Source: Muribaculaceae bacterium
Lineage (GTDB): Bacteria > Bacteroidota > Bacteroidia > Bacteroidales > Muribaculaceae
Reading direction: 5' to 3'
DNA length: 58,179 nt
Assembly (NCBI GenBank): GCA_017964485.1
Contig: JAGCRW010000040.1
Span: 1 to 58,179, forward strand
Shown here piece by piece: positions 8,333 to 30,563 of the stretch. The first letter of the stretch is position 1. The number at the start of each line of letters is the position of its first letter. The notes under the pieces are model-generated. The model worked only from the letters and a program-made list of their open reading frames with translations. It was not told the DNA's origin and made no database searches. The translations under genes and the position numbers were made by a program.

Positions 8333-9655
8333 CTATTTGTTTAGAGTGAACGATATTTTCTGCTTCTTGTGCAGGAAGAAGATGATTGCCGCCTCGATGA
8401 TGTAGGCTATGAGATAGCTGTACCAGATGGCGCTGGGAGCATATTTTGAGATAACCCACAGCACTGGAATCACCGTGAGCGACAAGGCAAAGGAGATGAA
8501 AAGCGCCATGCGGTGGTGGCTGTAAAGCTTGTAGATAATCATCAGCACATAGATGTAGCAGAAGGGGATAAAGCTCAATGCGAAGACACGCAGGGCATGG
8601 CTGCTCTGGGCGAGCATTTCGGGCTCGTCGCACCCAAAGAGCCTTGCGATGCCTTGTGGCCATATCCACACAAAGACGCAGGTGACAACCATCGCCACAG
8701 TGATGAACCGCAGACCTTTATCGATGACAGTTTTCACGCCACTCGCATTGCCTTTGCCCACTTGAATAGCACCCAGCGACTGCAGCGTTTGGCACGTACC
8801 CGAGAGGAAGAGGTTATAGACTTGCAGCAGATTCATGCACAGCGCGAAGACAAAGATTCCTGTGCGGCCAGTGGTGGAGAGCACGATTTTGTTGGCGCTG
8901 AACAGCAGTAGTGTGAGGCAGATTGATGCCAACGCCAAAGGAGCGCCCTGCGAGACGATGCGACGCCACGAGGCGAGCAGACCGCCACTGCCAAACTGCA
9001 AACGCAGCCGCCTGTTCTCAGGCTTGCGCCAATGGCTGAGCAGGATAGCGATTCCCACAAGATGCCCTACTATAGTGGCGGCACTCGAACCGGCGATGCC
9101 CCATCCAAAAACCTGAATGAAGACTATGTCGAGCAGCAGGTTCACGGCGTTGTCGATAATCACCGCCATCGACACTAACTTAGGGCTGCCGTCAACGCCC
9201 ACCATTGTAGAGAGCCCCCACATCACGATGAACGCAGGGTTGCCGATGAGCAGAATCTGCATATAGTCCTCGGCGAGAGGCATGATTTGCTCGTTGTCGC
9301 ACAGCATGTGAGCCGTCTGCACTGGGAACAGCAAGCCGCCAAAGATAGTGAGCAGCAAGCCCAAGCCAGTGCTGAGCGTCAAAGCGCGAGTGAAGAAACG
9401 TCGTGCGTCGCCTATGTTGTTCTTGCCCAAGGCATAAGCCACAAGCATTCCCGCGCCAGCATTGATGAGCAGGTGCAAAGTGAAGATAAACTGGTTGATA
9501 GGCTTGGACAGGTTGATGGCACTCACGCCGTCTTCACTGATGAGGTTTCCCACGATAATGCCGTCAACCACATTGCCCAAGCACCCTGAGAGCGCCACCA
9601 GAATATAGGCCCACAAGTAGCCGTAGAATTGCTTGTGTATATTGTTCTCAGTCAT
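8333..9655 (-). CDS. MATE-family multidrug/metabolite efflux pump
   Basis: A 440-residue inner-membrane protein with about twelve hydrophobic segments and the MATE pattern: an N-terminal repeat with GNVVDGIIVGNLI and AINLSKPINQ, then GVDGSPKLVS and DNAVNLLLDIVFI. MATE proteins export cationic drugs and secondary metabolites using proton or sodium gradients. The longest frame begins at a TTG (9676) that overlaps the promoter element at 9674-9681, so ATG 9653-9655 is preferred. It lies 1.3 kb downstream of the NRPS on the same strand, but a plus-strand gene intervenes. A role in exporting the NRPS product is therefore a guess only. Confidence 0.9.
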   Translation of the reverse strand: MTENNIHKQFYGYLWAYILVALSGCLGNVVDGIIVGNLISEDGVSAINLSKPINQFIFTLHLLINAGAGMLVAYALGKNNIGDARRFFTRALTLSTGLGLLLTIFGGLLFPVQTAHMLCDNEQIMPLAEDYMQILLIGNPAFIVMWGLSTMVGVDGSPKLVSMAVIIDNAVNLLLDIVFIQVFGWGIAGSSAATIVGHLVGIAILLSHWRKPENRRLRLQFGSGGLLASWRRIVSQGAPLALASICLTLLLFSANKIVLSTTGRTGIFVFALCMNLLQVYNLFLSGTCQTLQSLGAIQVGKGNASGVKTVIDKGLRFITVAMVVTCVFVWIWPQGIARLFGCDEPEMLAQSSHALRVFALSFIPFCYIYVLMIIYKLYSHHRMALFISFALSLTVIPVLWVISKYAPSAIWYSYLIAYIIEAAIIFFLHKKQKISFTLNK

Positions 9656-9673
9656 TGATTCAAAGCTTTTGTG

Positions 9674-9681
9674 CAAAGTAA
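9674..9681 (-). promoter_or_regulatory. Probable -7 element for the MATE gene
   Basis: The minus strand reads TTACTTTG, one mismatch from TAnnTTTG, 18 bp before the chosen ATG. The same variant precedes the STAS-NRPS operon at 18675-18682. Confidence 0.45.
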
Positions 9682-9825: not shown

Positions 9826-10857
9826 ATGAAGAAAACATTACTTGCTCTTTTAGCGATTGTCACTTGCAGTGTGGCAGCCAATGCCAATGTGTATGGCGAC
9901 GTTAACGGTGACGGCAATGTGACTGTTGTTGATGTTACCGCAATCTACAATTACCTTCTCGACGATGACGACACCTTCCTCGCCACCAGCGACATTGACG
10001 GTGATGGTTATATCACAGTTGCCGATATAACAATCATCTACAACATCATTCTCGGCAACGAGTCTCCCGTGGAGCCTCCCGCACCAGTGACAGAATTCAC
10101 TGTAAACGGCGTTACCTTCAAAATGATACAAGTGGAGGGCGGCACTTACATGATGGGAGTCGACCAACACGTGGGCAGCGCTTATCCTCCTCACGAAGTT
10201 ACACTGAGCACCTATTGGATAGGTGAAACCGAGGTAACTCAGGAGCTTTGGGTGGCAATAATGGGCATAAACCCTAGCTATTTTAACGAATATGGCAACG
10301 CCGATCTTCATTCCAACCATGCCAGTTACGACGCAGGAATCAATCTCCAGCGACCTGTTGACTATGTAAATTATGGCGATTGTCTAGAATTTTGCGCGAC
10401 TCTAAGTCAGTTAACAGGCAAGAACTTCCGCCTTCCCACTGAGGCTGAATGGGAGTTTGCTGCTCGTGGCGGAAATCTGAGTCATGGCTATGAGTTTGCC
10501 GGCAGCGATAGTATTAATGATGTGGCCTGGTACAAAGGCACTTTACCTTCAACGGAACTCTGGACCGAAGGCTGGGGCACACAGACCGTGGCAACAAAAG
10601 CACCCAACGAACTTGGAATATATGACATGTGTGGCAACGTTGATGAATGGTGCTTTGATTGGTTCGGCACCTATAGTGCTGACGCTGCGCCACTGACCAA
10701 CCCCACAGGACCAGAGACAGGTACTCGCCGCGTTATGCGCGGTGGTAATTGTCTTACCACCAACCCAGGAATTATGAAAGTATATTATCGCAACCAGCAG
10801 AATCCCGATGCAAGAGGCAACGCACGAGGTCTGCGCATCGTAATGGAAGATGAATAA
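9826..10857 (+). CDS. Secreted protein: N-terminal dockerin-like pair plus formylglycine-generating-enzyme-type domain
   Basis: A 343-residue exported protein with a signal peptide at about residues 1-20 and then two dockerin-type calcium-binding repeats at about 22-78 (GDVNGDGNVTVVDVTAIYNY and DIDGDGYITVADITIIYNII). Residues about 90-343 form a C-type-lectin-like FGE/SUMF1 domain: GGTYMMGVDQH, IGETEVTQELW, FRLPTEAEWEFAARGG, GNVDEWCFDW, RVMRGGNC and GLRIVMED. True FGEs oxidise a sulfatase cysteine using two active-site Cys near the C-terminus. Here that stretch reads KVYYRNQQNP without a Cys pair, so the domain may be non-enzymatic (binding) or of another FGE subtype. It has its own promoter. 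It stands alone between the MATE and NRPS genes on the opposite strand. Confidence 0.85.
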   Translation: MKKTLLALLAIVTCSVAANANVYGDVNGDGNVTVVDVTAIYNYLLDDDDTFLATSDIDGDGYITVADITIIYNIILGNESPVEPPAPVTEFTVNGVTFKMIQVEGGTYMMGVDQHVGSAYPPHEVTLSTYWIGETEVTQELWVAIMGINPSYFNEYGNADLHSNHASYDAGINLQRPVDYVNYGDCLEFCATLSQLTGKNFRLPTEAEWEFAARGGNLSHGYEFAGSDSINDVAWYKGTLPSTELWTEGWGTQTVATKAPNELGIYDMCGNVDEWCFDWFGTYSADAAPLTNPTGPETGTRRVMRGGNCLTTNPGIMKVYYRNQQNPDARGNARGLRIVMEDE

Positions 10858-10979: not shown

Positions 10980-13900
10980 TTACTCCATATCAAAGAATCC
11001 GAGGCCGCCGATTGCGGTGAGCATGCGCTCCACATAGTCCCAAGATGTTGGTGACCAGGTGAAGCCCAGGCGGTAGAGAACTTGTGTTGTGAGGTCGTTG
11101 TCGCGTGTCACGTCGGTGGTCTTCTGGCCGTGCGCCATGTCTTGGTAGGCAAGTAGACTTGCCATCTGTTTGGCCTTGGCTGGGTCGCTCTTGGCTTCAT
11201 CCATAGCACGCTCGAAGTCTTCCTGCTCCACAAACTTAATGCCCTCACCTACTGAGCTGAGGCCCATGAGCACATCGCCCAAGAACTGGGTGTGCAGGTT
11301 ATATGGATGGAACACGCAGCACTCGCGTGGCGTAGTCGACAGCATCACAATGGCATGAGCCACTTCGTTGATTGGCGAGAACTCTACACGCTTGTTGCGT
11401 ACAGCAAACGGGCACTCGCCAAGCATGTTATAGACCTTAATGCGGCCCATAAACGAGTTTGTGCCGAAGTTTGCCTGGAACTCTCCGTCGGTGCTTCGTG
11501 CGGCAAGGTTGCCCACACGCATAATCTTTGCGCTGAGCCCTCGGTTAGCGATGGCATCGAGTATAAGCCGCTCTGCCATAAACTTCGAGTAGATATACTT
11601 GTTACCCAAGAATTGGCCCATGTAGAGTCGCTGCTCGGTGAAGACATCGTCGCGGGGCTCGCCAGCCCACAGGCCACGCGTACTTGCCGTGGAAATGTGT
11701 ACCAATGTCGCTCCATTCTTCAAGCAGAAGTCTACGCAGCGTTGCGCGCCGCCAATGTTCACGTCTTCAATCTCAGTGCCCTCGCTGAAGTGCTTGACAA
11801 TAGCGGCACAGTTAAATACCGTGTCGATGTCGAGTCCCTCGCCGAAGTCGCTCGTCACGTCGCCCACAACGATGTGGAGGCGCTTGCCAAAGAGGTCTTT
11901 GAAAGCGTTGGCGAAGTAGTAGTAAAGCAGGGTGCGGAGTCGGCTCTCAGCCTTCTCAGCATCTTTTCCACGCACAAGGCAATAGATGTTCTTGGCGTCG
12001 CTGTCAATCAACTCACGCAAGATGTGAATGCCCAGATAGCCAGTGGCACCCGTGAGCAGCACGTTGCCCAACTCTCGGCGCTCGCCATTTCGGAAGGCAT
12101 CGAGAGTGTTCTGCGCCAGTACGTTGTTGATGGCAGTATAGTCATAGTCATTTACCTCATCAGGGCCATTTTCAACCGTCTCACCAGTGATGAGTCCTGC
12201 AAGTTGGCGCGGAGTGGGATTTGCGAAGACATCGCCGTAAGCCACATGCATTCCAGCCTTGTCGGCCTCGATAATCACGCGAGTTACAACCAGCGAGGTG
12301 CCGCCAAGTTCGAAGAAGTTGTCGGTAGCGCCGACCTTGTCCATTTGCAGAATATCGGCGAAGATTTCGCAGAAGGTGCGCTCGGTATCGTTGGCGGGAG
12401 CCTCATAGGCGGTCGAAATCGCCAGCTCAGGCTCTGGCAGAGCCTTCACGTCGGTCTTACCGTTGGGTGTGAGCGGCATCTTGTCGAGTTGGCGGTAGGC
12501 GGTCGGCACCATATATTGAGTGAGACTCTTCGAGATCTCGGCCTTGAGCGCGTCGGGGGCAATCTCGCGATCGGCAGTGTAATAAGCGCAGAGGTGCTCC
12601 TTGCCGCCAATCTTGCGAATCATTATCACCACCTTGTCGATGCCCTCCACACGGAGCATCACGTTCTCAATCTCGCCAAGCTCGATGCGCAAGCCGCGCA
12701 GTTTGATCTGGTGGTCGGTACGGCCAAGAATCACCACATCGCCATCGGGCAGCCACTTGGCGTAGTCACCCGATTTGTAGATGCGTGTGCCGTGGTAGTC
12801 GATAAAGCGCTCACGCGTCATATCATCGAGGTTGTTGTAGCCTCGAGCCACGCCTCGGCCGCCAATGTAGAGCTCACCCACAACGCCAACCGGCAACTCG
12901 TTGCCGTCGCTATCAACGATAAACTCCTTGACATTAAGCTGCGGCTTGCCCACAGTCACGAAATAGGCGCGAGTCAACTCCTTATTGTTAGATGCCACAG
13001 TAATCTCGGTGGGACCGTAGCAGTTGAAGATGCGCGCTTTAGTCACAGTGCGCATTTGATGCAGCAGCTGGTCGCTGAACTTCTCGCCACCTGCACGCGC
13101 AATCTTGATATTGGCGATAGCCTTTGCGAAGTCGTCGCTCGTGAGCCACGTCTGCCAGCGCGATGGCGTTCCTGACACCATATTGATGCGCTGCTCGGTG
13201 ATAAGTTGTGCCAAGTCAAGCGGGTTGTTGGCTTGCTCCTCGGTGGCGACGATTAGCGTCTTTCCGTTGAAATATGCCATACCAATGTCTTGCAGGGCGG
13301 CGTCAAACGAGATGGTCGTCACACCAAGCACACGGTCGGCATCGGTCATTACGGCGTTAGCAAACACATTAGCGGGATGTCCGTAGAGGTAGTTGCAAAT
13401 GCCCTCATGGCGCAGCATCACACCCTTGGGACGGCCTGTCGAGCCGCTTGTGTAGATAAGATAAGCGAGGTCGTCGGGAGTGATTTCAGGCTTTCGATAT
13501 TCTTGAGCATTATGTGTTCCGCATTCTTCATTCTGAATTGTGCATTGTGCATTATGCATTGTGCATTGAATCAATTCTTCCACATTTATCGCCTTCTCTG
13601 CTGGCACACTGTCCATCTTATCGGCTGTAGTGATGATATATCGTGCCTCGCTGTCCTCAAGGATGAGTTTGACGCGGTCGGCAGGATATTCGGGGTCACA
13701 GGGAATGTAGGCGGCGCCTGTCTTGAGCACGCCAAAGAGCGACAGAATCAGCCTACTGGTGCGAGGCAAGAGCAATGCCACACGGTCGCGCTCCCCTACT
13801 CCACGCGCTTGTAATGCAGCGGCGATGCGAGTGGTCACCTCATCCATATCACGGTAAGAGAACTTGCCGTCAATGGCAATCAGAGCATCGTGGTCAGGCT

Positions 13901-16900
13901 GAGTGGCGGCATAGTGACCAATGCACTCGTGGAAGAAACGGAACGGCGCGTCGCCAGTCGCAACCTGACGCAACTTGGAGAGTTCCTGCTCCTGAGCCTC
14001 ACTCACAATGGAGATGTGACGCACTTTCTCGGCAGGCTGCAGAATCATGCGCTCAACCACCGCTCCAATGCTTTGTGCGAACGCTATCGCTAGGTCTTGA
14101 GAATAGATGGCATCGTCATATTGCACTACGATGCCTCGTGTCTCTATCTTGATGTTTATCTTGAACTTTGGCACATTCAACTCAAGCAGTTCCTGCTCAA
14201 TCGCCTCGCCATTTAGAGTATACTGCGACAGCACTCCCACCTGATAAGCATAGGCTATAGCAGGGCGGAAGCCATAATCGGCAGCGATGCGCGCAAAGGG
14301 GTAATCTTCGTGGCGCAACGTCTGGTCAAATGTGTCGCAGGTTTCACGCAGGAAGTCTCCCACGCTCACGTCGTTGATAGCGATGCCAAGCGGCAGGGTG
14401 TTTACAAACATGCCCACCGTGTCGGCAATCTTGAGGTTGGAACGACCGCTGCTCACGGTGCAGAGATACACCTCGCGATTGTTGGTGTAACGCGACACCA
14501 CATAAGATGCGGCGGCAAGGAACAGATGAGCGGGTGTCACCTCCTGGCTACGGCAGAAGGCGGCAGCCTTATCGTGGTCAACAGCGCAGACCACCTCGCC
14601 AATCAAGCCCTGAACATCGCTCTTTGGCAAGTCGCCAGGAATCTCGCTGGCACCCTCGCAAGTGGCGAGCCGCTCAGCAAAGAACTGCTGCGATGCCTTG
14701 AAGGTCTCGCTCTCCTCGGCAGCCTGCTGGTCGGTAACGAAATCAAGGTAAGAATAGGTCTCCTTCTCCACGTCCTTGCCCTCAAGAGCGGCGTTGATTT
14801 GGCGAATCAGCAGGTCGGCAGAGCCACCGTCAAAGATAAGGTGATGCACGTCAAAGAGCAGATGCACACCACTTGGTGTGGTTACAACCTCAAAGCGATA
14901 TAAGGGTGCCTTCTGCAAATTGAATGGCTTCACAAAGTCGTTCTTATAAGTCGCCAACTCCTTGTCGTTCATGTGAGTGACGGGGATATTGACTGGCGCA
15001 CCATCTTCAATGGTCTGCATTATCTTGTCGCCCTCAGTGGTGAAATGCACGCCAAGTTCGGGGTGACTTTCCACCACACGTTTCACAGCCTCGGCAAGTT
15101 TCTGCGCATTAGTGCCATCGGGGTAAGAGAGCAGATATGGGATGTTGTAGATGGTTGAAGTTGGGTTCTTAAGGCACTCAAAATAGACGCCTGTCTGCGC
15201 GTATGACAGCGGCACGGCTGTCTTCGTCTCACCTTTCTCAACTGATTTTGCTGTGGTCTTCTCACCAGCCATCATTTGCTTGAGAATCTCGTTCTCAATG
15301 GTCTGCAATGTGCCTGTCTTGACGAGCGACTTGGAGTCGAGCGCCACGCCATAGCGCTTGTTGACCTGAACGGCAAGGCGTATCGAAGAAATGGATGTCA
15401 AGCCAGCATATCCGAGCGGAGTTGTGATGCCAAACTCGGTGTTGCCCACAATCTGAGCAATCATCTCGTGCAGTTCCTGCTCGAGTACATTCATTGGCAC
15501 GTTGCTTTCCTCTATTGCAGCGGCAGCCTTCTTCTCGGGCTTAGGCAACGCACGTTTGTTGACCTTCTGGTTCTGGTTAAGAGGAATGGCTTCAATCTGC
15601 ATAGTCACAGCAGGAACCATATAAGGTGGCTTCTCGTCGAGTATAAAGTTATTGAGAGCCTCGATGTCAATGGTCTCATCGCTCACGATATAGGCAGCAA
15701 TGAACTTGCCGCCACCCTCCTCGTCAAAGGCCTGCACCGTAGCGTCTTTGATGCCTGGGAATTCGCGAATTATGCCTTCCACCTCTTTCAGCTCAATGCG
15801 GAAACCGCGAATCTTCACCTGACCATCACGACGGCCCACAAACTGTATGTCGCCACTTGGAAGGTAACGCACGATGTCGCCAGTACGATAGATGCGACTG
15901 TATTTCTCACAATCGGCGAATGGATTGCTGATATAAACCTCAGCGGTCTTCTCGGGGCGATTTAGATAGCCACGGCTCACCTGAGGTCCTGACACCCAAA
16001 GTTCGCCCGCTGCGCCCACTGGCAGGCGGTGCCCCTGTGGGTCAACGATATAGAGCCGCATATTGTCAAGCGGCTTGCCAATGGGAATGTCCTTCAAGCG
16101 CTCATCCACAAGATAGGTGGTAGTGAAAATGGTGCACTCAGTGGGGCCATAGCCATTGTAGAATTTATAGCCTTCGGGGGGAGTGAGCGACGCCAATTTC
16201 TCGCCACCAGTGGAGAGGTGCATAAGCGAGTGGTTCTCAATGCCGGTGGCAAACTGATAAGCCACCTGAGTAGTCATAAACGAATGTGTGACATTGTTCT
16301 TTTCGAAGTATTCATTCAAGGCAATCAAGTCGAGGCGTATCTCCTCGGGAATGATGTGGAGCGCTGCGCCACAGGTTAGGGCTGGATACATATCCATCAT
16401 GCAAGCGTCGAAACCGTAACTTGCATAGGCTGCCACACGGTGCTCGGCAGCAAGGCTGTAGTAACGATGGTACCAGTTGCAGAAGGCAACAAGATTCTTG
16501 TGGGTAAGCTGGCAGCCTTTTGGCACGCCAGTCGAACCGCTAGTGTAGAGCATGATAAAGAGTTGGTCAGGCTCGATAGTAACATCGGGTGCTGGTGAGC
16601 TAGGCAGACGGCTAATGTCGCTGGTAAGCAGAACCTCGCCATCATATTCATTGACAAGTTGTCGCAGTTCGGCGTCGGCAATAAGCAGTTTAGCGCTCGC
16701 GTCTTTCATCATGAAATTCAGTCGCTCGGTGGGATAGCTTGGGTCGAGGGGCTGGTAGGCGCAACCTGCTTTTAGCACACCTAACGATGCTATCACCATC
16801 CATTCGCTGCGCGGAATGAGCACGCTCACCACATCTTCTTTGCCAAGACCCTTGCTGGCGATGGCTGCTGCAATGCGGTTGCTGATGTCATCAACTTGGG

Positions 16901-18284
16901 CGTAGGTATAGCTGCGGCCGCTATAGACAACGGCGGTGTTAGAGGGCGTTGTGGCGGCTTGCTGCTTGAAGAGCGACACAATGGTCTGAGTGTCATCGTA
17001 GTCCACATCAGTCTGGTTAAAGCTGTCAAGAACTTCAACTTGCTCTGCAGTGGCAATATTGATGTCTTTAAGCCTTTCTTGCGAGAGGAATCCTTCAACA
17101 ACAGCCTCATAGCTCTCAAGGAATTGAGCGATAAGTGCCTCACTGTACTCGTTGCTGTTGTACTCGGCCTTGACCTGATAATGGTCATTGAGGATAAAGG
17201 CCTTGATATAGAGCGAGGCATCAAGGGTGCTATTTCCCAAGCGAACTGTCTTCATGGGCTTGCCTGCCCACTGTTCATCACCAAAGAGATATCCGTGCCA
17301 GCCAAACATCACGTTGGTCTGCAGATTCAGGTCGGCCATTACGTCACTATAACTGTAGATGTCGTGCTGGCGACAGCCGCTCATCTGCTCTTGCAGCCTA
17401 AACATGAAGTCAATGGTGGTGGTTTCGCCGTCAAACTTGCCATAAACGGGCAGCGTCTTAACCATCATGCCCACGGTGCGCGACATTAGCTTGTCGCTGC
17501 GACCGTTATATACGGTGGTGAACAGCGACTCCATCTCATTGTTGTATTTCGCCAGCAAGAAACTAAAGGCTGCCGTGAAAAAGTTGCTTTTGAAGATGCC
17601 GTTGGCCTTGCAGAACTCCTCAACGCGAGTCAAATCAACGTTTAGAGTGCGAAGCAAGTTTGCCTCACTGTGCTCGGGCTCATAAAGATCGGGCATCAAT
17701 TGGGTGAAGGTGTCGCCGCAGTCGAAGTTGGTGGCATACCAGCGCTTGGCTTCCTCAAACTCAGGCTTCTGCCTTAGTTGTTGCTCATCGAGGGCAATTT
17801 GCGCCATAGTAATGGTCTCGGGCTCTATAGCCTCATTGTTATAAGCCCTCTCTATGTCATGTAGCAAGAGTTGCATCGATGTGCCGTCGACAATTATGTG
17901 GTGGTAGTCGAGGAAGAGATAGTAATGCTCGCTATCTTGCATTACACTCACATGGAACAATCGGTCGCCGTAGATGTTGAATGGTTGCACCAGGCTCGCT
18001 TTTTCCCTCTCGATATTGGTAATTCTTTTAATTTCGAGAGTGAATTGCTCATTGTCAAGGTCGATAGTTTGCACGGGCTCGCCATCATCGCCAAGCTCGA
18101 TGCGTGTGAACATGGTGGGATGCGACTTGAAGGCTGTAATCACTGCTTGACACAGGCACTCGCCATCGAGGCTGCCGTCAAGCACATAAATGTAGGGCAG
18201 ATTGTAGCATGGCTCGCCAGGATGGCTCGCACATTCCACATATAGCCCATACTGAGACTTGCTCAGGGGTGCTGTGATTTTCAT
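10980..18284 (-). CDS. Bimodular non-ribosomal peptide synthetase, C-A-T-C-A-T-R
   Basis: A 2434-residue enzyme. In order: C1 with YHHIIVDGTS near residue 129; A1 with YTSGSTGVPKG near 581; carrier T1 with AGLTSISSIRLA near 963; C2 with VHHLIFDGGS near 1148; A2 with YTSGSTGRPKG near 1615; carrier T2 with FFELGGTSL near 1997; and a terminal NAD(P)-dependent reductase with GATGYLG near 2080 and YIYSK further on. The chain is therefore released by reduction, typically as an aldehyde, and an amino-terminal C domain suggests N-acylation of the first residue. My hand-aligned A-domain codes are D-A-M-F-L-T-G-I-F-K (hydrophobic residue likely) and D-A-Q-S-A-A-C-V-A-K (no prediction). A phosphopantetheinyl transferase must act on it but none is seen here. 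It is the second gene of an operon, 6 bp after a STAS gene. A GCAT repeat is inserted in A2 (see 13500-13571). Confidence 0.95.
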   Translation of the reverse strand: MKITAPLSKSQYGLYVECASHPGEPCYNLPYIYVLDGSLDGECLCQAVITAFKSHPTMFTRIELGDDGEPVQTIDLDNEQFTLEIKRITNIEREKASLVQPFNIYGDRLFHVSVMQDSEHYYLFLDYHHIIVDGTSMQLLLHDIERAYNNEAIEPETITMAQIALDEQQLRQKPEFEEAKRWYATNFDCGDTFTQLMPDLYEPEHSEANLLRTLNVDLTRVEEFCKANGIFKSNFFTAAFSFLLAKYNNEMESLFTTVYNGRSDKLMSRTVGMMVKTLPVYGKFDGETTTIDFMFRLQEQMSGCRQHDIYSYSDVMADLNLQTNVMFGWHGYLFGDEQWAGKPMKTVRLGNSTLDASLYIKAFILNDHYQVKAEYNSNEYSEALIAQFLESYEAVVEGFLSQERLKDINIATAEQVEVLDSFNQTDVDYDDTQTIVSLFKQQAATTPSNTAVVYSGRSYTYAQVDDISNRIAAAIASKGLGKEDVVSVLIPRSEWMVIASLGVLKAGCAYQPLDPSYPTERLNFMMKDASAKLLIADAELRQLVNEYDGEVLLTSDISRLPSSPAPDVTIEPDQLFIMLYTSGSTGVPKGCQLTHKNLVAFCNWYHRYYSLAAEHRVAAYASYGFDACMMDMYPALTCGAALHIIPEEIRLDLIALNEYFEKNNVTHSFMTTQVAYQFATGIENHSLMHLSTGGEKLASLTPPEGYKFYNGYGPTECTIFTTTYLVDERLKDIPIGKPLDNMRLYIVDPQGHRLPVGAAGELWVSGPQVSRGYLNRPEKTAEVYISNPFADCEKYSRIYRTGDIVRYLPSGDIQFVGRRDGQVKIRGFRIELKEVEGIIREFPGIKDATVQAFDEEGGGKFIAAYIVSDETIDIEALNNFILDEKPPYMVPAVTMQIEAIPLNQNQKVNKRALPKPEKKAAAAIEESNVPMNVLEQELHEMIAQIVGNTEFGITTPLGYAGLTSISSIRLAVQVNKRYGVALDSKSLVKTGTLQTIENEILKQMMAGEKTTAKSVEKGETKTAVPLSYAQTGVYFECLKNPTSTIYNIPYLLSYPDGTNAQKLAEAVKRVVESHPELGVHFTTEGDKIMQTIEDGAPVNIPVTHMNDKELATYKNDFVKPFNLQKAPLYRFEVVTTPSGVHLLFDVHHLIFDGGSADLLIRQINAALEGKDVEKETYSYLDFVTDQQAAEESETFKASQQFFAERLATCEGASEIPGDLPKSDVQGLIGEVVCAVDHDKAAAFCRSQEVTPAHLFLAAASYVVSRYTNNREVYLCTVSSGRSNLKIADTVGMFVNTLPLGIAINDVSVGDFLRETCDTFDQTLRHEDYPFARIAADYGFRPAIAYAYQVGVLSQYTLNGEAIEQELLELNVPKFKINIKIETRGIVVQYDDAIYSQDLAIAFAQSIGAVVERMILQPAEKVRHISIVSEAQEQELSKLRQVATGDAPFRFFHECIGHYAATQPDHDALIAIDGKFSYRDMDEVTTRIAAALQARGVGERDRVALLLPRTSRLILSLFGVLKTGAAYIPCDPEYPADRVKLILEDSEARYIITTADKMDSVPAEKAINVEELIQCTMHNAQCTIQNEECGTHNAQEYRKPEITPDDLAYLIYTSGSTGRPKGVMLRHEGICNYLYGHPANVFANAVMTDADRVLGVTTISFDAALQDIGMAYFNGKTLIVATEEQANNPLDLAQLITEQRINMVSGTPSRWQTWLTSDDFAKAIANIKIARAGGEKFSDQLLHQMRTVTKARIFNCYGPTEITVASNNKELTRAYFVTVGKPQLNVKEFIVDSDGNELPVGVVGELYIGGRGVARGYNNLDDMTRERFIDYHGTRIYKSGDYAKWLPDGDVVILGRTDHQIKLRGLRIELGEIENVMLRVEGIDKVVIMIRKIGGKEHLCAYYTADREIAPDALKAEISKSLTQYMVPTAYRQLDKMPLTPNGKTDVKALPEPELAISTAYEAPANDTERTFCEIFADILQMDKVGATDNFFELGGTSLVVTRVIIEADKAGMHVAYGDVFANPTPRQLAGLITGETVENGPDEVNDYDYTAINNVLAQNTLDAFRNGERRELGNVLLTGATGYLGIHILRELIDSDAKNIYCLVRGKDAEKAESRLRTLLYYYFANAFKDLFGKRLHIVVGDVTSDFGEGLDIDTVFNCAAIVKHFSEGTEIEDVNIGGAQRCVDFCLKNGATLVHISTASTRGLWAGEPRDDVFTEQRLYMGQFLGNKYIYSKFMAERLILDAIANRGLSAKIMRVGNLAARSTDGEFQANFGTNSFMGRIKVYNMLGECPFAVRNKRVEFSPINEVAHAIVMLSTTPRECCVFHPYNLHTQFLGDVLMGLSSVGEGIKFVEQEDFERAMDEAKSDPAKAKQMASLLAYQDMAHGQKTTDVTRDNDLTTQVLYRLGFTWSPTSWDYVERMLTAIGGLGFFDME
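13500..13571. repeat. GCAT-rich dispersed repeat lying in frame inside the NRPS A2 domain
   Basis: This tract of GTGCATT/ATGCATT units encodes residues about 1572-1595 of the NRPS (translating as CTMHNAQCTIQNEEC and so on), just before the A3 core of A2. It shares CACAATGCATAATGCACAAT with the intergenic tract at 18919-18980 and related words with 23648-23715. It keeps the frame and has no stop. Confidence 0.8.
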
Positions 18285-18290
18285 AGTAAA

Positions 18291-18593
18291 TTACTCAAAG
18301 TTAAAGAGATTAATGAAACCTGTCATTTTAAACACGTTCTTGATGTCATCGTTGAGGCCCTTGAGAGTGACGATGTGGCCGTGCGACTTGGCTTTCTTGA
18401 GAATGCCAAGCAGAATGCGCAAACCGCTTGATGCGATGTATTCAAGTTGGGTGCAGTCGATAACAATGTCTTTGTCCTCGTTGTCGTAAAGGGGTTTCAT
18501 CTCTTTCTCCACTTCGATAGCGGCAGCAGTGTCGAGCTCGCCAATGAACTCAGCAACCAACTTGTCATCAATCTCATTAATTGTAGTCTTCAT
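18291..18593 (-). CDS. STAS-domain anti-sigma factor antagonist (RsbV/SpoIIAA-like)
   Basis: A 100-residue single STAS domain, the usual size. It opens MKTTINEIDDKLVAEFIGELDTA, the beta-strand/GELD pattern of anti-anti-sigma factors. The phosphorylation loop is YIASSGLRILLGIL, placing the regulatory Ser at residue 55 (as in the DS-T/S-G motif of RsbV). In partner switching, the dephosphorylated form binds an RsbW-type kinase and frees that kinase's other partner. Phosphorylation by the kinase reverses this. It is the first gene of an operon with the NRPS (6-bp gap). A fused RsbU-phosphatase/RsbW-ATPase lies at 26951-29164 on the same strand and is the obvious candidate partner. Confidence 0.9.
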   Translation of the reverse strand: MKTTINEIDDKLVAEFIGELDTAAAIEVEKEMKPLYDNEDKDIVIDCTQLEYIASSGLRILLGILKKAKSHGHIVTLKGLNDDIKNVFKMTGFINLFNFE

Positions 18594-18794: not shown

Positions 18795-18826
18795 GCGTGA
18801 GGGAATTGCCCTTAATCCCCTCACGC
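18795..18826 (-). terminator. Terminator of the first BspA-like gene
   Basis: The stem GCGTGAGGG / CCCTCACGC is followed on the minus strand by TTGTTTTG. The same structure with near-identical flanks recurs at 23614-23645 after the second BspA gene. Confidence 0.65.
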
Positions 18827-18918: not shown

Positions 18919-18980
18919 TATTGTGCATTATGCATTGTGAATTATACATTGATTAAAGCATTATGCATTAAGCATTATGC
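18919..18980. repeat. GCATTATGCATT tract at the 3' end of the first BspA gene
   Basis: Degenerate repeats of TGTGCATTATGCATT and AGCATTATGCATT directly abut the stop codon. They are related to tracts at 13500-13571, 23648-23715 and, more weakly, 40405-40445. Confidence 0.75.
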
Positions 18981-18985
18981 ATTGA

Positions 18986-21900
18986 CTAATTTCCCAACAA
19001 GATATTGTAGATAACAGTGATGTCGGTGGTGGTAATGATACCATCACCATCAACGTCACAGGTATCAATAAAGGTGGTGTCGCCGTTGAGCAGGTAGTTA
19101 TAAATGCAGGTCACGTCGACTGTGGTCACTGCGCCGTCGCCATCCACATCGCCTATCACAACTACTACGGCATTCGGGTCGGTGAAGTAGCCTGGGTTGT
19201 CGGGACCGCCATCGATGTGGGCATATTCCTTACCTGTGTGGCTGGCATTATAGGTCGTGCCCATGCCGCCCACCAGTGAGGTGCAGCCCGTAAACATGTC
19301 ACATGAGCCATAGACCCACTGTGTAGTCCATCCGCCACCGGCATATATGGTCTTCAGCTTCGAACAGTCTTGGAACATGGCACCAGGGTTGGTTAAATTG
19401 CGAGTGTCCCAGCCCGAGATGTCGAGCGTTTTGAGACTTGAGCATTTGTTGAACATAGACATCATTGTATAGACCTGCATGGTGTTGAAATTCGAAACAT
19501 CGAGTGATTTCAGGCTTGTGCACGAATTAAACATTGAGTTCATGTTACTCAAATTGCCGGTATTCCAGTTCGAGAGGTCTAGCGAGGTCAGGCTTGAGCA
19601 GTTTTCAAACATACTGATCATGCTGGTAACACTGCTGGTATTGACACTACTCAAATCCATGCTTGTGCAATTGGTGAAGCCCTTGAACAGCTCCGAGCAG
19701 TCGCCCATGAAGTTCACCTGATTAGTGGCAGTAACGCTCGTGACGTTATTGGCAATCACCTCGCTGCCCCACATGTCGTCCTTATTGAACACGCCCCAGT
19801 TGAGCGACAGTGCGCCTGTGGTGCTGTCGTAGGTGTAGCGCGGTATATTGGCGGTTAAGTAGCCGGGGTTGGCTGAACCGCCGTCAATGTGGGCATATGC
19901 CTTATTTGTGTGGTACTGGTCATAGGTCGTGCCCATGCCGCCAACCAGCGATGTGCAGTCATCGAACATATATCCCGACATAGTAACTTTCTCGGTGCTC
20001 CAACCCATGCCAACGACGATGGTGGTCAAGTTTGTGCATCCAGCGAACATGCTCGTCATGCTGGTGACATTGCCAGTGTCCCAGCCCGAGATGTCGAGTG
20101 TGGTAAGACCAGTACATTCTAAGAACATATAGCCCATATTGGTGGCGGTGGAGGTGTTCCAGCTTGAGATGTTGAGCGAAGTCAAACTCCCGCACCATCG
20201 GAACATATAGCCCAAGTTGGTGACTTTGCTGGTGTTCCAGTTCGAGAGGTCTAGCGAAGTCAAGGAATCGCAATTTGAGAACATGCCTTCCATGTTGGTG
20301 ACATTGGCGGTATTCCAGCCCGAGATATCGAATGACGTCATGCTTGAGCAATAGTAGAACATGCCGGCCATGTCAGTGACATTGCCAATGTCCCAATTCG
20401 ATATATTGAGTGAGGTTAAGGCTTCGCATTGAAAAAACATATCGCATGCACTCGTCATCGCACTGGTGTTTACATTACTCAAGTCCATGCTCTCACAAGA
20501 TTCAAAGTTATAGAACAGCTCCGAGCAGTCGCCAGTGAAGCTCACCTCACTGGTGGCGGTAACGCTCGTAACGTTTTCCTCATCTACATCGTTGCCCCAC
20601 TTGTTGTCCTTGTTGAACTCGCCCCTAAGAAGCGTCAGTGCACCAGTCGCGCTGTCGTAGGTGTAGCGCAGTTCCTGAAGCTCAACGGTCACGGTGGCAT
20701 CGTTTAACGGCATCTCGAATGTGTTGCCCTCGATAGCGGTCCCGTTCACGCTATAGACAACCTCTTGGCCCTCGGGCACATTGCCGTTGTAGGTGAGGGT
20801 GACGGTGGTGCCAGCGGTGTAGTAGGCAATATCGTCAATTGTGAAGACAGGAGTTACCGAAGCTGTCACATCCACAGGCAGGGTGAGAGTGAACACGCCC
20901 GTGAAGTAGCCCGGCTCGTCGGTGCCACGGTCGATGCGGGCATATTCTTTTTCAATATGGTTGCTGTCGAAGGTGGTGCCCATGCCGCCCACCAACTTTG
21001 AGCAGTAATTGAACATGTAATCTGAATACTCAATATCCCCTGCATCCCAGCTTGTGGAAGCATAGATGGTAGTAAGTTGAGCGCAGCTCGAGAACATAGC
21101 GGTCAAACCAACGACATTGCTGATATCCCAGCCTGTGATGTTGAGCATTTTGAGGCTTGTACAAGCATTAAACATATAAGTCATATCCCTAACCTTGCTG
21201 GTGTTCCAACCCGAGATGTCTAGCGAGGACCCATTATAAGCTTGAAACATATAGCTCATATCGGTGACATTGCCAGTGTCCCAACCCGAGAGATCGAGCG
21301 AGGATCCGTTATATAAGTAGAACATATCAGACATATCAGTGACTTTGCCGGTATCCCAGCCCGAGATGTCGAGTTGCAACGCTGATGTTCCACAAATGCT
21401 AAACATCCAACTCATGTTGGTAACATTGCCGGTATCCCAATTCGAAATATTGAGTGTGCTGAGGGCACCACAGTTGAAGAACATCCTTTTCATGTTGATT
21501 ACTGCGCTGGTGTTGACACTGTTCAGGTCCATACTTGTGCAATTGTAAAATTCAGCGAACAAATTCGAGCAGTCGCCGGTGAAGCTCACCTGGCTGGTGG
21601 CGGTGACGCTCTTGACGGCCGAGGCTGGCACCTCGTTGCCCCACTTGTTGTCCTTGTTGAACTCGCCCCAGTTTAGGGTCAGCTCACCAGTCTCACTGTT
21701 AAAGGTGTATTGTGCCAAACCCCATTTGGCATATAGCGTCATGTCGCCAGTGACCACTGTGTTGAAATCCCACTGATTGATGCATGCCGCCTCGGTGTAC
21801 CACCCCTGGAAGGTGTAGCCATTGGCAGTTGGAGCCGTGGGCACAGTGGCCTTGTCATTGTTGCTCCAGATGGTCTGTGACGCAGGATCGGTGCCGTGGC

Positions 21901-23647: not shown

Positions 23648-23715
23648 CATTGTGCATTATCCATTATTGAATGGCGCAGCCCATTATGCATTGTGCATTA
23701 AGCATTATGCATTAA
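23648..23715. repeat. GCATTATGCATT tract at the 3' end of the second BspA gene
   Basis: Units of TGTGCATT, ATGCATT and AGCATT run up to the stop codon at 23716, split by a short unrelated stretch (GAATGGCGCAGCCC). Confidence 0.75.
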
Positions 23716-26950: not shown

Positions 26951-29164
26951 TCAATTGCTTGATTTGTTGTCTATCTTCTTAGTCAATGTGAGGACGTTTT
27001 TCCCGTCGATTCGCTCGTAGTTGATGGTGTCCATGAGTTGTCGCACGAGGAAGATGCCCAGGCCACCGATTTGGCGTTCTTCGGCGGTGAGTGAGGTGTC
27101 TACGTCGGGGGCGTCGGTTGGCGCAAATGCCACGCCATTGTCGGTGATTTTAAACCGTAAAGCTGTTGCTGTGGCAGTCGCCTCAATGTCGATTTCTCCT
27201 TTTTCTCCAGCTGGATAGGCGTAGTTTATCACGTTGACTACAGCTTCCTCAATGGCGAGTTTGAGATTCTGGGTGTCACTGGGTGCGAAATTCAGCTCAT
27301 CGCCAATGTTTTTCACAAAGTCATTGACTTGTGCCAAATGGCTGAGGTCATTGGTTATAGAGAGCTCCTGATGCAAAATGGTCTCCTCTTCCTGTGGGGT
27401 AAACTTCACAGCGAGCATAGTGAGGTCATCGCTCTGCTCAGCGCCATTGACAAACTCGCTGGAGGCATAAAGCAAGCTGTCGAGCAGTTGCTGCGACGTG
27501 GCTTCAAGATGCTCGTTGACAACATCCTTAACCCGCTGCAGGCCAAACTGCTGGTGATGAGCGTTCATCGCCTCGGTGAGGCCATCGGTGTAGAGCAACA
27601 AGAAAGAACCTGGCTTCAACTCGGTCTCTTGACCCTCATAGAACCAATCAACATCCACACCAAGCGGTATGTTTGAGATTACCTCAAGCGGCAGCGCCTC
27701 ACCATTGACAATCAACGGAGTGTCGTGACCAGCATTACAATAATGTAATCGCCCAGTGGGCAGGTCAAGCACTCCAATGAAGAAAGTGACAAACATGCTC
27801 GACTCGTTGCCGTGGCACACTGCCTGGTTAATCTTCTGCATGATGCGCGCAGGATGGCTTTCGCGCGAGCCGAAAGAGCGGAACATGGAGTGTGTCACCG
27901 ACATTATGAGCGCCGAAGCCATTCCCTTTCCACTGGCATCGCCAATGCAGAAGAAGAGTTTGTCGTCACGTAGGAAGTAGTCGTATATATCTCCACCAAC
28001 CTCGCGCGCAGGCAGCAAGGTTGCTGTAATGTCAACATTGTCGTGGCTTAGGTCATCATGAGGCAGCATCTCGCTCTGAATGCGCTTTGCCACCTGTAGC
28101 TCGGTGTCAATACGGTCTTTTTCCCTCTCGTTTTGAGCCATTCTTTTGTTGTTCTTGAGGAAACGGTAGATGATATATCCCAGCAACAGGAAACCCAGCA
28201 GCATGAACAGACCTGTTCTAAGACGTATCTTATTAAGATCACCAAACACCTCATTGTCATAGCACACCACCGCCACTTGCCAGTGTGGATTTCCTTTCAT
28301 GTGGTGGAAGAAGACGCAGGCATCTTGACCATCTTCATTAACGAATTCTATCACCTTGATTTTGCTTTTGGCGACAACGCGCACATCAGCGTTTGAGTCA
28401 TTGATAAGGCGAATGGCATCGTCAAAATCTTTATAATGGATATGGCTCTTAGGGGGCTGAGAGATGAGTTTACCGTCATCGGTGAGCAACAAGCAATAGG
28501 AAGATGGATACATATGCCTGTTGTTGAGAGTGTCTCTGAGCCATTCGAGCGAGAGGTCGATGCCGGCAATTCCAGCCTGGCGGCCTTGACGGTCGATGAT
28601 AGGTACAGAATAAGTGGTAATCAGTGAGTGTGTCTCCACACTGTCGATATAGGGGTCGCTCCAATATGGTTTCCCAGTGCGCATCGGTTCGGTGTAGAAT
28701 GTCAAATTGGTATAGTCGTGTCCACCTCGTTTGGCGATATTCTCGCGCACTTTCACTCCAGTTTGCGTATTAAAAGCCCACGGCTCAAACAACTCGTCAT
28801 TATCCTCATAATATCCTGGCTTAAAAGCCAATCCAACACCTTTAAAAAAGTCATTGGCTTGAACAATAGTGCGTATGGCGTCACCGATATCGTCGGGTTC
28901 ATCGGTCAATTTGGTAATTTCTGTCACATGGCTGTTAAGCACTTGCTCGGTGGTGTTGAGCATACTCTTGATAAGGATGGCTTTCATAGTTATCTCGATA
29001 GAAGCTTTCTTCTCAAGCTCGTTTTCAAGAAGCTGCTTGGTGTAGTAGTACTGTGCTGCCGAGAACAATTCAAGCAGCAATGCGGCAAGCACTATAATCA
29101 AAGTGATCCAAGTGCGCCTATTCAAGAGTTTTCTTATTTTATTCAGCAGTTTTCCCATGGCCAC
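26951..29164 (-). CDS. Membrane sensor with SpoIIE-type PP2C phosphatase and RsbW-type ATPase domains
   Basis: A 737-residue protein. A membrane segment (about 18-38), an extracytoplasmic Cache-like sensor (about 40-310; contains PYWSDPYIDSVE and GIAGIDLSLEWL) and a second membrane segment (about 317-336) come first. A helical linker (340-365) leads to a SpoIIE/PP2C phosphatase with metal Asp at GGDIYD (392), GDASGKG (409), YTDG (527) and SDD (579-580). A C-terminal HATPase_c domain (about 600-730) has N-box EEAVVNVINYAY, G1 DNGV and G2 GGLG. The protein thus combines RsbU-like and RsbW-like functions and should reversibly phosphorylate a STAS antagonist in response to an external ligand. The only STAS gene in the window is 18291-18593. 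It is probably co-transcribed with the barrel protein upstream (49-bp gap). Confidence 0.9.
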   Translation of the reverse strand: MAMGKLLNKIRKLLNRRTWITLIIVLAALLLELFSAAQYYYTKQLLENELEKKASIEITMKAILIKSMLNTTEQVLNSHVTEITKLTDEPDDIGDAIRTIVQANDFFKGVGLAFKPGYYEDNDELFEPWAFNTQTGVKVRENIAKRGGHDYTNLTFYTEPMRTGKPYWSDPYIDSVETHSLITTYSVPIIDRQGRQAGIAGIDLSLEWLRDTLNNRHMYPSSYCLLLTDDGKLISQPPKSHIHYKDFDDAIRLINDSNADVRVVAKSKIKVIEFVNEDGQDACVFFHHMKGNPHWQVAVVCYDNEVFGDLNKIRLRTGLFMLLGFLLLGYIIYRFLKNNKRMAQNEREKDRIDTELQVAKRIQSEMLPHDDLSHDNVDITATLLPAREVGGDIYDYFLRDDKLFFCIGDASGKGMASALIMSVTHSMFRSFGSRESHPARIMQKINQAVCHGNESSMFVTFFIGVLDLPTGRLHYCNAGHDTPLIVNGEALPLEVISNIPLGVDVDWFYEGQETELKPGSFLLLYTDGLTEAMNAHHQQFGLQRVKDVVNEHLEATSQQLLDSLLYASSEFVNGAEQSDDLTMLAVKFTPQEEETILHQELSITNDLSHLAQVNDFVKNIGDELNFAPSDTQNLKLAIEEAVVNVINYAYPAGEKGEIDIEATATATALRFKITDNGVAFAPTDAPDVDTSLTAEERQIGGLGIFLVRQLMDTINYERIDGKNVLTLTKKIDNKSSN

Positions 29165-29213: not shown

Positions 29214-30563
29214 CTACCATTTGACTTGCAAGAACCGTGGACGCACTATGATATTTAGCCATGCCCAATGCAGGTCGCGATTGTCGCTCACGCGCTTAAG
29301 GCGTTCCATTGTCTCGGTGCCGTGCATGTAGCTATAGCCAAGAGACACAGTCACCTCTTTTACAGGAGAATAGCTGGCCACGAGTTCTATCTCTTGGCCA
29401 AGTGGCTTATCAAGATTATCAGTATTTGTGGCAATTGCAAAATAATGATAGGTAGCGTCAAATTTCAGCTTGGGAATGGGCTTATAGGAAACACCGGCAA
29501 ACAGGTTCTGCAAGCCAGGAGTGAAACCGTCAAAATAGGTGGACAAATAAAAGAAATCCATTGCGCCATAGAATTTGTGGTGAGAGCCATAAACGGGACT
29601 AAAACCCTTGATGGTCTTATGCTGAACAAGACCTAAACCAATACTGCCTCCTGGAGGAACAGCAAAGAAGGGGTCCCCGCTTAGTATGTCGTAGCCAGCA
29701 ATGAGTTTCCATTGCGAAGATGGTGAATAAGTGCCTTTCACGCTTGCCATCCAAGCCGAGATGTCGATTCCGTCCTCATTCTTTCCCATTTGATAATAGA
29801 ATGAGCCTTCGGCACTCCAATTCTTGGGTTTATAAGAGATATAAGTACCTATAAGTTGCTGAAAATACGTTTTTTTGAGGTCATTTTCATTGGTGCTCTG
29901 CAGACCTTGGTTCATGAACAGCAATGACGCGCCAAAAGGCACATGTGGATGGTCGTAGTGATACCACAGGTTCTGCATCAGTTTATAGGGTTTGTCGCCG
30001 TTACGGTATTCGGTGCCGCCGTTCACACTCTCGCTGTTCTGATTGTAGGCAAACATGGCGTGCACTTTGTGCTGATTGTTCTCATATCCCACCTTGATAA
30101 GGTCGTGAGAGAGCGCTGCCATCGCCCAGTCGTTGGAGCCAATGATACGCTCATCGTCGTAACTGAGTACCTGACGGCCAATTTTAGCGAAGAACCCCTT
30201 GCGCGAGGTGAGCTGCACCCACGCCTCATAGAGGTTGAACGCCCCTTTGCCTGACTGGCCCCATATTGCAGAATGTTGAGCCGTAATGTGTGACTTGAGA
30301 AAAGTGCGCTCATAGTCAATTCCAAGCCTAGTGCGCTCAAGGATGAAATAAGCCTTATTATCGTGGTCTTCCTCGTTGTCGGGCAATCCGCCAAGGCGCA
30401 TCTCGCTGCGCGTCATCAGCTCGGCATCAACAGTGAAGTTGTTAAGTTTCTCTGCCTGCGACTGAGTTTCTACATCTTGTGCCAACACACTAACAGGCAG
30501 CAACACAGCAACCGCAACAATCATCACCGCAAGCAATTTTTTATGGCATCGACAAGTAATCAT
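29214..30563 (-). CDS. Alginate-export-family outer membrane beta-barrel
   Basis: A 449-residue protein with a signal peptide ending VSVLAQ (about residue 29). The body alternates in amphipathic strands and contains GRQVLSYDDERIIGSNDWA, the characteristic segment of the alginate_exp barrel family (porins such as AlgE). The final strand ends in aromatic residues (RFLQVKW). The family forms monomeric outer-membrane channels, and in Bacteroidales the substrate is usually unknown. It is the first gene of a likely operon with the Cache-SpoIIE-RsbW sensor, so the channel could supply or relate to the sensed compound (inference). Confidence 0.8.
   Translation of the reverse strand: MITCRCHKKLLAVMIVAVAVLLPVSVLAQDVETQSQAEKLNNFTVDAELMTRSEMRLGGLPDNEEDHDNKAYFILERTRLGIDYERTFLKSHITAQHSAIWGQSGKGAFNLYEAWVQLTSRKGFFAKIGRQVLSYDDERIIGSNDWAMAALSHDLIKVGYENNQHKVHAMFAYNQNSESVNGGTEYRNGDKPYKLMQNLWYHYDHPHVPFGASLLFMNQGLQSTNENDLKKTYFQQLIGTYISYKPKNWSAEGSFYYQMGKNEDGIDISAWMASVKGTYSPSSQWKLIAGYDILSGDPFFAVPPGGSIGLGLVQHKTIKGFSPVYGSHHKFYGAMDFFYLSTYFDGFTPGLQNLFAGVSYKPIPKLKFDATYHYFAIATNTDNLDKPLGQEIELVASYSPVKEVTVSLGYSYMHGTETMERLKRVSDNRDLHWAWLNIIVRPRFLQVKW

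Follow-up and report, generated by a model that had tools for sequence, protein, structure and literature searches.

A reductase-terminated NRPS cluster of Muribaculaceae with a putative partner-switching module of its own

A gene for a STAS protein of the anti-sigma-factor-antagonist type, an NRPS gene ending in a reductase and a gene for a sensor protein with both kinase and phosphatase domains (26951-29164) occur together in a stretch of 58,179 nucleotides from a Muribaculaceae bacterium. This whole stretch was analysed and is called the window below. Comparison with related genomes supports the view that the three genes form one conserved, recurrent cluster rather than a chance neighbourhood. 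The best explanation of the sequence data appears to be an NRPS cluster of the peptide-aldehyde type that carries its own partner-switching module.

The cluster in the window

The features on which the analysis is based are as follows (all on the minus strand):

8333..9676, minus strand: MATE-family exporter, 447 aa, plain, i.e. without HATPase (PF01554, 3e-28)
10980..18284, minus strand: NRPS with domain order C-A-T-C-A-T-R, 2434 aa (Pfam: two Condensation, two AMP-binding, two PP-binding, one NAD_binding_4)
11349..12056, minus strand: terminal reductase (NAD_binding_4) of the NRPS, aa 2077-2312 (PF07993, 1.6e-34)
18291..18593, minus strand: single-domain STAS protein of the anti-sigma-factor-antagonist type, 100 aa (PF01740, 2.7e-16)
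18429-18431, minus strand: codon of Ser55, the predicted phospho-acceptor of the STAS protein (acceptor loop YIASSGLR)
18795..18826, minus strand: terminator-like hairpin separating STAS from the BspA-like gene upstream of it, 13 pairs and a T-rich tail (single consensus match)
26951..29164, minus strand: sensor phosphatase-kinase with Cache, SpoIIE-type PP2C and RsbW-like HATPase, 737 aa (PF22673; PF02743; PF07228, 2.4e-49; PF13581, 8e-27)
29214..30563, minus strand: outer-membrane beta-barrel ('porin'), 449 aa (PF13372, 3.4e-11)

Open reading frame coordinates and Pfam results agree with the sequence-only reading of this DNA, which had placed a STAS protein with an intact serine loop 6 bp upstream of a complete C-A-T-C-A-T-R NRPS. 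The protein passes the TIGR00377 model for anti-sigma factor antagonists (70 bits against a curated cut-off of 53.45), and in the alignment to SpoIIAA its Ser55 coincides with the serine that is phosphorylated in SpoIIAA. This serine is invariant among the aligned STAS homologues (13/13). Of the 107 STAS proteins collected, NRPS-linked or not, 106 carry a serine at the position and the remaining one falls outside the search motif.

The ATPase domain that had been assumed for the 26951 protein is indeed present, and it is fused to a SpoIIE phosphatase and a Cache region. Within its own genome (approximately 91% complete) this protein is the only SpoIIE-type match and also the only strong RsbW-like match, the other HATPase_c_2 match being marginal and located in a 775-aa frame. 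Of 84 sensor proteins, again NRPS-linked or not, 81-83 retain the RsbW-type catalytic residues (E and N; DxG and G boxes), while strict patterns for the PP2C metal-binding motifs are found in 76 of 90 (GGDxxD) and 87 of 90 (D-x-SGKG). Judged by sequence, the predicted module is a partner switch, a known target excepted: it combines a conserved acceptor serine with an RsbW-type HATPase and a SpoIIE-type PP2C. The 26951 gene is separated from STAS in the window by two large genes for BspA-like proteins with dockerin domains (18986-23461 and 23716-26715); in many relatives its homologue directly adjoins STAS. The window MATE is the cluster homologue, separated from the NRPS by an inserted gene on the opposite strand, and a MATE homologue is also located 3' of the NRPS in several family genomes. 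As a side observation, type I dockerin domains occur in four window proteins, the two BspA-like ones, an FGE-sulfatase-like one at 9826-10857 and an amylase-like one at 36715-38967.

Since the gap of 6 bp between STAS and NRPS is too short for them, a separate promoter and terminator between the two genes are ruled out, in line with the earlier claim; the terminator scan also found no terminator-like site inside the gap. The single promoter proposed for both genes is a different matter. The gap leaves no space for a second one, but no exact Bacteroidales -7 element occurs in the 400 bp upstream of STAS, where only six one-off matches are seen, and neither the sigma-70 nor the Bacteroidales promoter scan was informative. 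The hairpin at 18826-18795 may close the gene upstream of STAS, though as a single terminator-like site it is weak evidence and no proof, because the scan overall yields 12 sites against 10.6 in shuffles.

The closest NCBIfam model for the NRPS is that of the aureusimine synthetase AusA (NF047350), at 1135 bits. AusA itself has the order A-T-C-A-T-R, and protease inhibition is ascribed to its product in the aldehyde form (PMC12153313). The window NRPS resembles AusA and the gut dipeptide-aldehyde NRPSs in its two modules and reductase end; unlike AusA it has an extra N-terminal condensation domain, and it misses the equivalog cut-off of 2500 bits.

Recurrence in the family and the order

A search with the window STAS protein yields a match in 16 of 149 family genomes, and the NRPS reductase domain (E 1e-20) is found in 13. 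These 13 are identical to the 13 genomes with the best STAS scores; the remaining three (G144, G004 and G041) have weaker STAS matches and no reductase. The adjacency thus extends beyond the genome in which it had been noticed, with STAS and NRPS close together on one contig in 12 of the 13 (in G146 they are on different contigs). All 13 genomes belong to the same five out of 30 genera, and the probability of such an overlap by random draws is 6e-19 by genome and 7e-6 by genus, kinship being ignored. The two genes are also absent together: within one genus G095 lacks both, and within another G002 has neither while G101 has the pair. The SpoIIE phosphatase follows the same tendency (13/13 NRPS genomes versus 2/8 chosen comparison genomes). 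Together with the short gaps described below, this co-occurrence leads us to reject a chance adjacency of STAS and NRPS.

Gene order was analyzed in named genomes, which were scanned with the STAS alignment; we used the best 80 of 587 confirmed relatives, chosen by STAS similarity. They are mostly ruminant-gut assemblies of Muribaculaceae, Prevotellaceae, Bacteroidaceae or Bacteroidales, and two loci (L053 and L111) come from one genome. An NRPS lies within the fetched stretch in 56 of the best 80. The commonest order is kinase/phosphatase-STAS-porin-NRPS (22 loci), and the full order with a MATE after the NRPS and a full-fusion sensor is seen in 16. In 63 loci STAS is preceded by a kinase and/or phosphatase gene (median gap 21 bp, range -17 to 408), and a cluster gene on the same strand follows STAS in 58 (median gap 13.5 bp, range -166 to 329). 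This following gene is a porin in 34 cases, the NRPS in 16, an SNF-type symporter in six (one of which is confirmed by Pfam) and a MATE-HATPase fusion in two. Several gene orders share the same gene content. For the earlier interpretation this means that STAS, the 26951 protein and the NRPS do form a recurrent cluster, but that co-transcription of STAS with the NRPS is just one arrangement among several. The proposal that the operon feeds back on its own control is not supported in the form given.

Where the stretch contained no NRPS (24 loci), we checked the genome as a whole. A reductase is present elsewhere in 20 and absent in four (those of L094, L105, L112 and L114). At six of the 20 reductase loci a STAS, HATPase, PP2C-HATPase or MATE-HATPase gene adjoins the NRPS (G540, G546, G547, G548, G549 and G554), and at one (G555) a PP2C gene is nearby. 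No switch gene is seen beside the reductase in 11 (G536-G539, G541, G543-G545, G550, G553 and G557), and the stretches of G542 and G552 are too short to judge. L036, L038 and L040 have a STAS protein 92-93% identical to that of the window and a single reductase match, approximately 50% identical, that is located elsewhere; its frame measures 1436-1441 aa and adjoins no switch gene.

On the level of the order, 217 of 393 genomes have some STAS match and 12 a reductase (E 1e-20). A cluster of this kind is present in G411 and G501 in addition to the window's genome. In the distant G400, a member of another family, an NRPS with reductase is followed 11 bp on by STAS and then by a PP2C-HATPase in a row. 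At the remaining eight reductase loci no switch gene appears in the sequence fetched, which is short for four of them. Conversely, eight order genomes other than the window's have a STAS match with E below 1e-37, of which only G501 and G411 have a reductase, whereas it is absent from G459, G390, G431, G375, G248 and G515. Because reductase loci occur without the switch and close STAS relatives without the reductase, the linkage, as far as the sequences tell, characterises a single NRPS clade and one distant case; it is not general among the NRPSs or the STAS switches of Bacteroidales.

Divergence of the blocks and MATE-HATPase fusions

Pairwise distances were compared for loci having all parts, initially 37 of the best 80; the sets of 31 and 24 loci exclude two duplicate genomes and include additional loci from the family. 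Because STAS similarity governed the choice of loci and the comparison had no species tree behind it, all correlations below are to be read as indications only. Distances of STAS, HATPase and PP2C agree with each other (r 0.61-0.67, 37 loci), and so do those of the NRPS parts (r 0.71-0.89). Between STAS and the NRPS parts there is no significant correlation in any set: r is 0.02-0.08 for 37 loci (permutation p 0.20-0.42), 0.17-0.25 for 31 and 0.06-0.21 for 24, the highest value being that of STAS against the reductase in the 31-locus set (r 0.25, p 0.055). Values for the other switch parts against the NRPS, calculated for the 37 loci without permutation, are 0.19-0.25 (HATPase) and 0.04-0.09 (PP2C). 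The porin follows both sides (31 loci; r 0.42-0.53 with the switch, 0.31-0.39 with the NRPS). The MATE follows the NRPS (r 0.55-0.72) and not the switch (-0.16 to -0.04) in the 24 loci, one of which is a fusion. This suggests a switch block (STAS, kinase, phosphatase) and a production block (NRPS, MATE) that may have been recombined repeatedly.

The peptide itself probably varies as well. In seven loci the identity to the window NRPS is 62-68% for module 1 and only 37-40% for module 2. The adenylation-domain codes, which some domains do not yield, are mostly DAMxSGxIF in module 1; in module 2 they fall into a few classes, mostly DAQxRGCVA besides DMKxMGTVS, DAMxSGGIF and DCMxIAGIL. A product prediction from these codes yielded no amino acid assignment. 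The low identity and differing codes of module 2 point to different peptides behind one kind of switch.

Some MATE exporters carry a C-terminal RsbW-like HATPase_c_2 domain. We found 12 such genes in 10 genomes, both domains scoring above the Pfam cut-offs. Five had been noticed first, and the others were collected with a profile of the C-terminal end applied to 55 chosen and 393 order genomes. The MATE-HATPase fusions are:

L178 1041-2777: MATE-HATPase fusion
L179 8412-10169: MATE-HATPase fusion
L224 8664-10439: MATE-HATPase fusion
L225 7991-9766: MATE-HATPase fusion
L226 13542-15323: MATE-HATPase fusion
L227 7823-9598: MATE-HATPase fusion
L228 8222-9970: MATE-HATPase fusion
L229 1499-3313: MATE-HATPase fusion
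L230 3634-5412: MATE-HATPase fusion
L232 15325-17091: MATE-HATPase fusion
L233 5213-6967: MATE-HATPase fusion
L234 6900-8654: MATE-HATPase fusion

Ten of the 12 lie at most one gene from an NRPS-type gene, seven directly adjoining it; the exceptions are the two in G568. Among the matches listed in the 393 order genomes, the sole strong fusion-type frame is that of G411, which is an NRPS carrier; frames of similar length in G400 and G316 turned out not to be MATE fusions. A profile of the MATE-fused kinase domain gave no match to solved structures at E 0.01.

Possible outputs of the switch

We consider it fairly probable that a dedicated, membrane-sensed partner switch governs when the NRPS peptide is made or exported. 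An external ligand, perhaps admitted by the barrel, would set the balance between phosphatase and kinase activity of the Cache sensor. This balance would fix the phosphorylation of Ser55, and the free or phosphorylated STAS protein would then decide whether the NRPS-MATE block makes and exports its peptide.

The likeness to the RsbU/RsbV/RsbW and SpoIIE/SpoIIAA/SpoIIAB systems of Bacillus lies in the STAS protein with acceptor serine, the RsbW-type ATPase and the SpoIIE-type PP2C. Unlike these systems the window has kinase and phosphatase in one membrane sensor protein, an NRPS as partner and no recognised sigma gene in the core cluster. STAS/kinase/phosphatase switches are likewise found in Gram-negatives: SiaA-SiaB-SiaC-SiaD and RssB/RssC (HsbR/HsbA) of Pseudomonas, SypE/SypA of Vibrio fischeri and BtrU/V/W of Bordetella. 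None of the Sia, Hsb, Syp and Btr systems is an NRPS cluster, and their domain order and partners differ from those of the window; the SiaA and RssB models match the 26951 protein far below their cut-offs. An output other than simply a sigma factor is described for SypA (PMC12826045) and for Btr, which controls secretion (PMC8256260).

For the window, a sigma-B-type factor is the less likely output. Such a target is disfavoured by the region-3 sigma factors, the only class counted, of the 13 NRPS genomes, of which nine have a single one, two have two and two have none. As no region-3 sigma factor at all was found in the window's genome, its assembly must be incomplete. A wider form of transcriptional control is one possibility, though a less than even one: the HATPase might sequester a DNA-binding partner whose gene lies elsewhere, such as an ECF sigma factor, and STAS would release it in the RsbV/RsbW manner. 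The presence of all three canonical components with intact motifs, and of a STAS protein that passes TIGR00377, speaks for this possibility, as does a parallel from Vogesella. The pigment indigoidine is NRPS-made. Its regulator in Vogesella, TciR, is a response regulator consisting of a receiver and an RsbW-like domain, and the authors report no RsbV homologue in that organism (PMC12826045). TciR shares the RsbW-like domain with the window switch and has a receiver in place of Cache-PP2C; by analogy it may serve as the nearest precedent found. Besides the sigma counts, what weighs against transcriptional control is that no sigma or other recognised DNA-binding gene recurs in the core cluster, whose outer neighbours are not all identified.

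A second possibility, of about the same modest probability, is control at the level of export. The switch would act on transport, and where the MATE carries a HATPase, STAS might bind and gate the exporter or report its state. In sister clusters export is the most concrete candidate output because the kinase domain sits on the MATE itself, and all 12 fusions retain the catalytic E, N, D, G and F, ten of them being within one gene of an NRPS-type gene. In the genome G101 (approximately 87% complete) the PP2C protein is without a HATPase and the only PF13581 match above cut-off is the domain fused to the MATE; the PP2C protein of L051 also lacks one, though its genome (G560) has two other HATPase matches. 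It is conceivable, if doubtful, that the kinase partner of STAS can be the exporter with its C-terminal RsbW-type kinase, peptide secretion rather than sigma release being the output or the sensed variable. However, 10/12 fusions have another residue in place of the first glycine of the later G box, and STAS is present in the cluster of only 6/12, several stretches ending early. In the window, where the MATE is plain, the same contact is counted against, because the MATE shows no co-variation with the switch; a specific MATE-STAS contact is not indicated in the 24 loci.

It seems improbable that switch and NRPS merely share a mobile or permissive neighbourhood while the switch serves another cellular function. 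The independent divergence of the two blocks would agree with this, as would the lack of a reductase in 6/8 order genomes with an equally good STAS and in the four named genomes mentioned above, and the RelA/SpoT-type, citrate-transporter-type or other genes found beside close STAS relatives in other Bacteroidales. It accounts poorly for the coincidence of the 13 closest STAS proteins with the reductase in 149 family genomes, for the short gaps, for the constant gene content in several orders and for the independent arrangement in another family. A direct effect of STAS on the NRPS enzyme or on its folding is very unlikely: STAS does stand just upstream on the same strand in the window and in 16 of the best 80 loci, but a porin or other gene often intervenes, and the lack of a significant correlation between STAS and NRPS distances argues against a specific contact.

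In the literature searched, which covered few subscription journals, we found no description of a STAS protein with an NRPS in Bacteroidota or of a MATE-RsbW fusion. Rumen genomes are described as rich in NRPS clusters, with Bacteroidaceae among the main holders (PMC8241843), and an account of how these clusters are controlled was not found in the same literature. The arrangement recurs in many rumen bacteria, and the sensor-kinase-phosphatase-STAS module may offer a concrete handle for activating silent clusters. The role of STAS switches in bacteria that lack an obvious sigma-B target becomes testable as well, and a transporter fused to an anti-sigma-type kinase would, if true, tie partner switching directly to secretion.

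Some smaller observations concern other neighbours of STAS and the NRPS genes. A RelA/SpoT-type protein follows STAS in L112 (10303-11349), L181 (9295-10353) and L114 (10300-11358), of which L112 and L114 are named Prevotella strains; the assignment is Pfam-checked for L112 and the other two are alike at the N terminus. The pairing might hint that alarmone synthesis and switches of this type are connected. A CitMHS-TrkA_C transporter directly precedes STAS in L183 (8282-10078), L189 (6509-8299) and L185 (7327-9123), Pfam-checked for the first two, and these loci also have kinase and phosphatase genes nearby. L253 (106-18172) contains STAS, a porin, two tandem reductase-ended NRPS genes and then a MATE. 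L020 (8609-18574) has an NRPS of 3010 aa with a third adenylation domain, and upstream a full STAS and an ORF with a 35-aa STAS remnant. Finally, a dispersed repeat with a 7-base period (ATGCACA/ATGCATA) is located in the window at 13530-13566, 18920-18982 and 23649-23712. One copy is in frame within the second adenylation domain of the NRPS, and the residues diagnostic of it are absent from 66/66 other NRPS ORFs checked; in the genome the repeat has 184 matches (overlaps counted) versus 13 for the reversed control.
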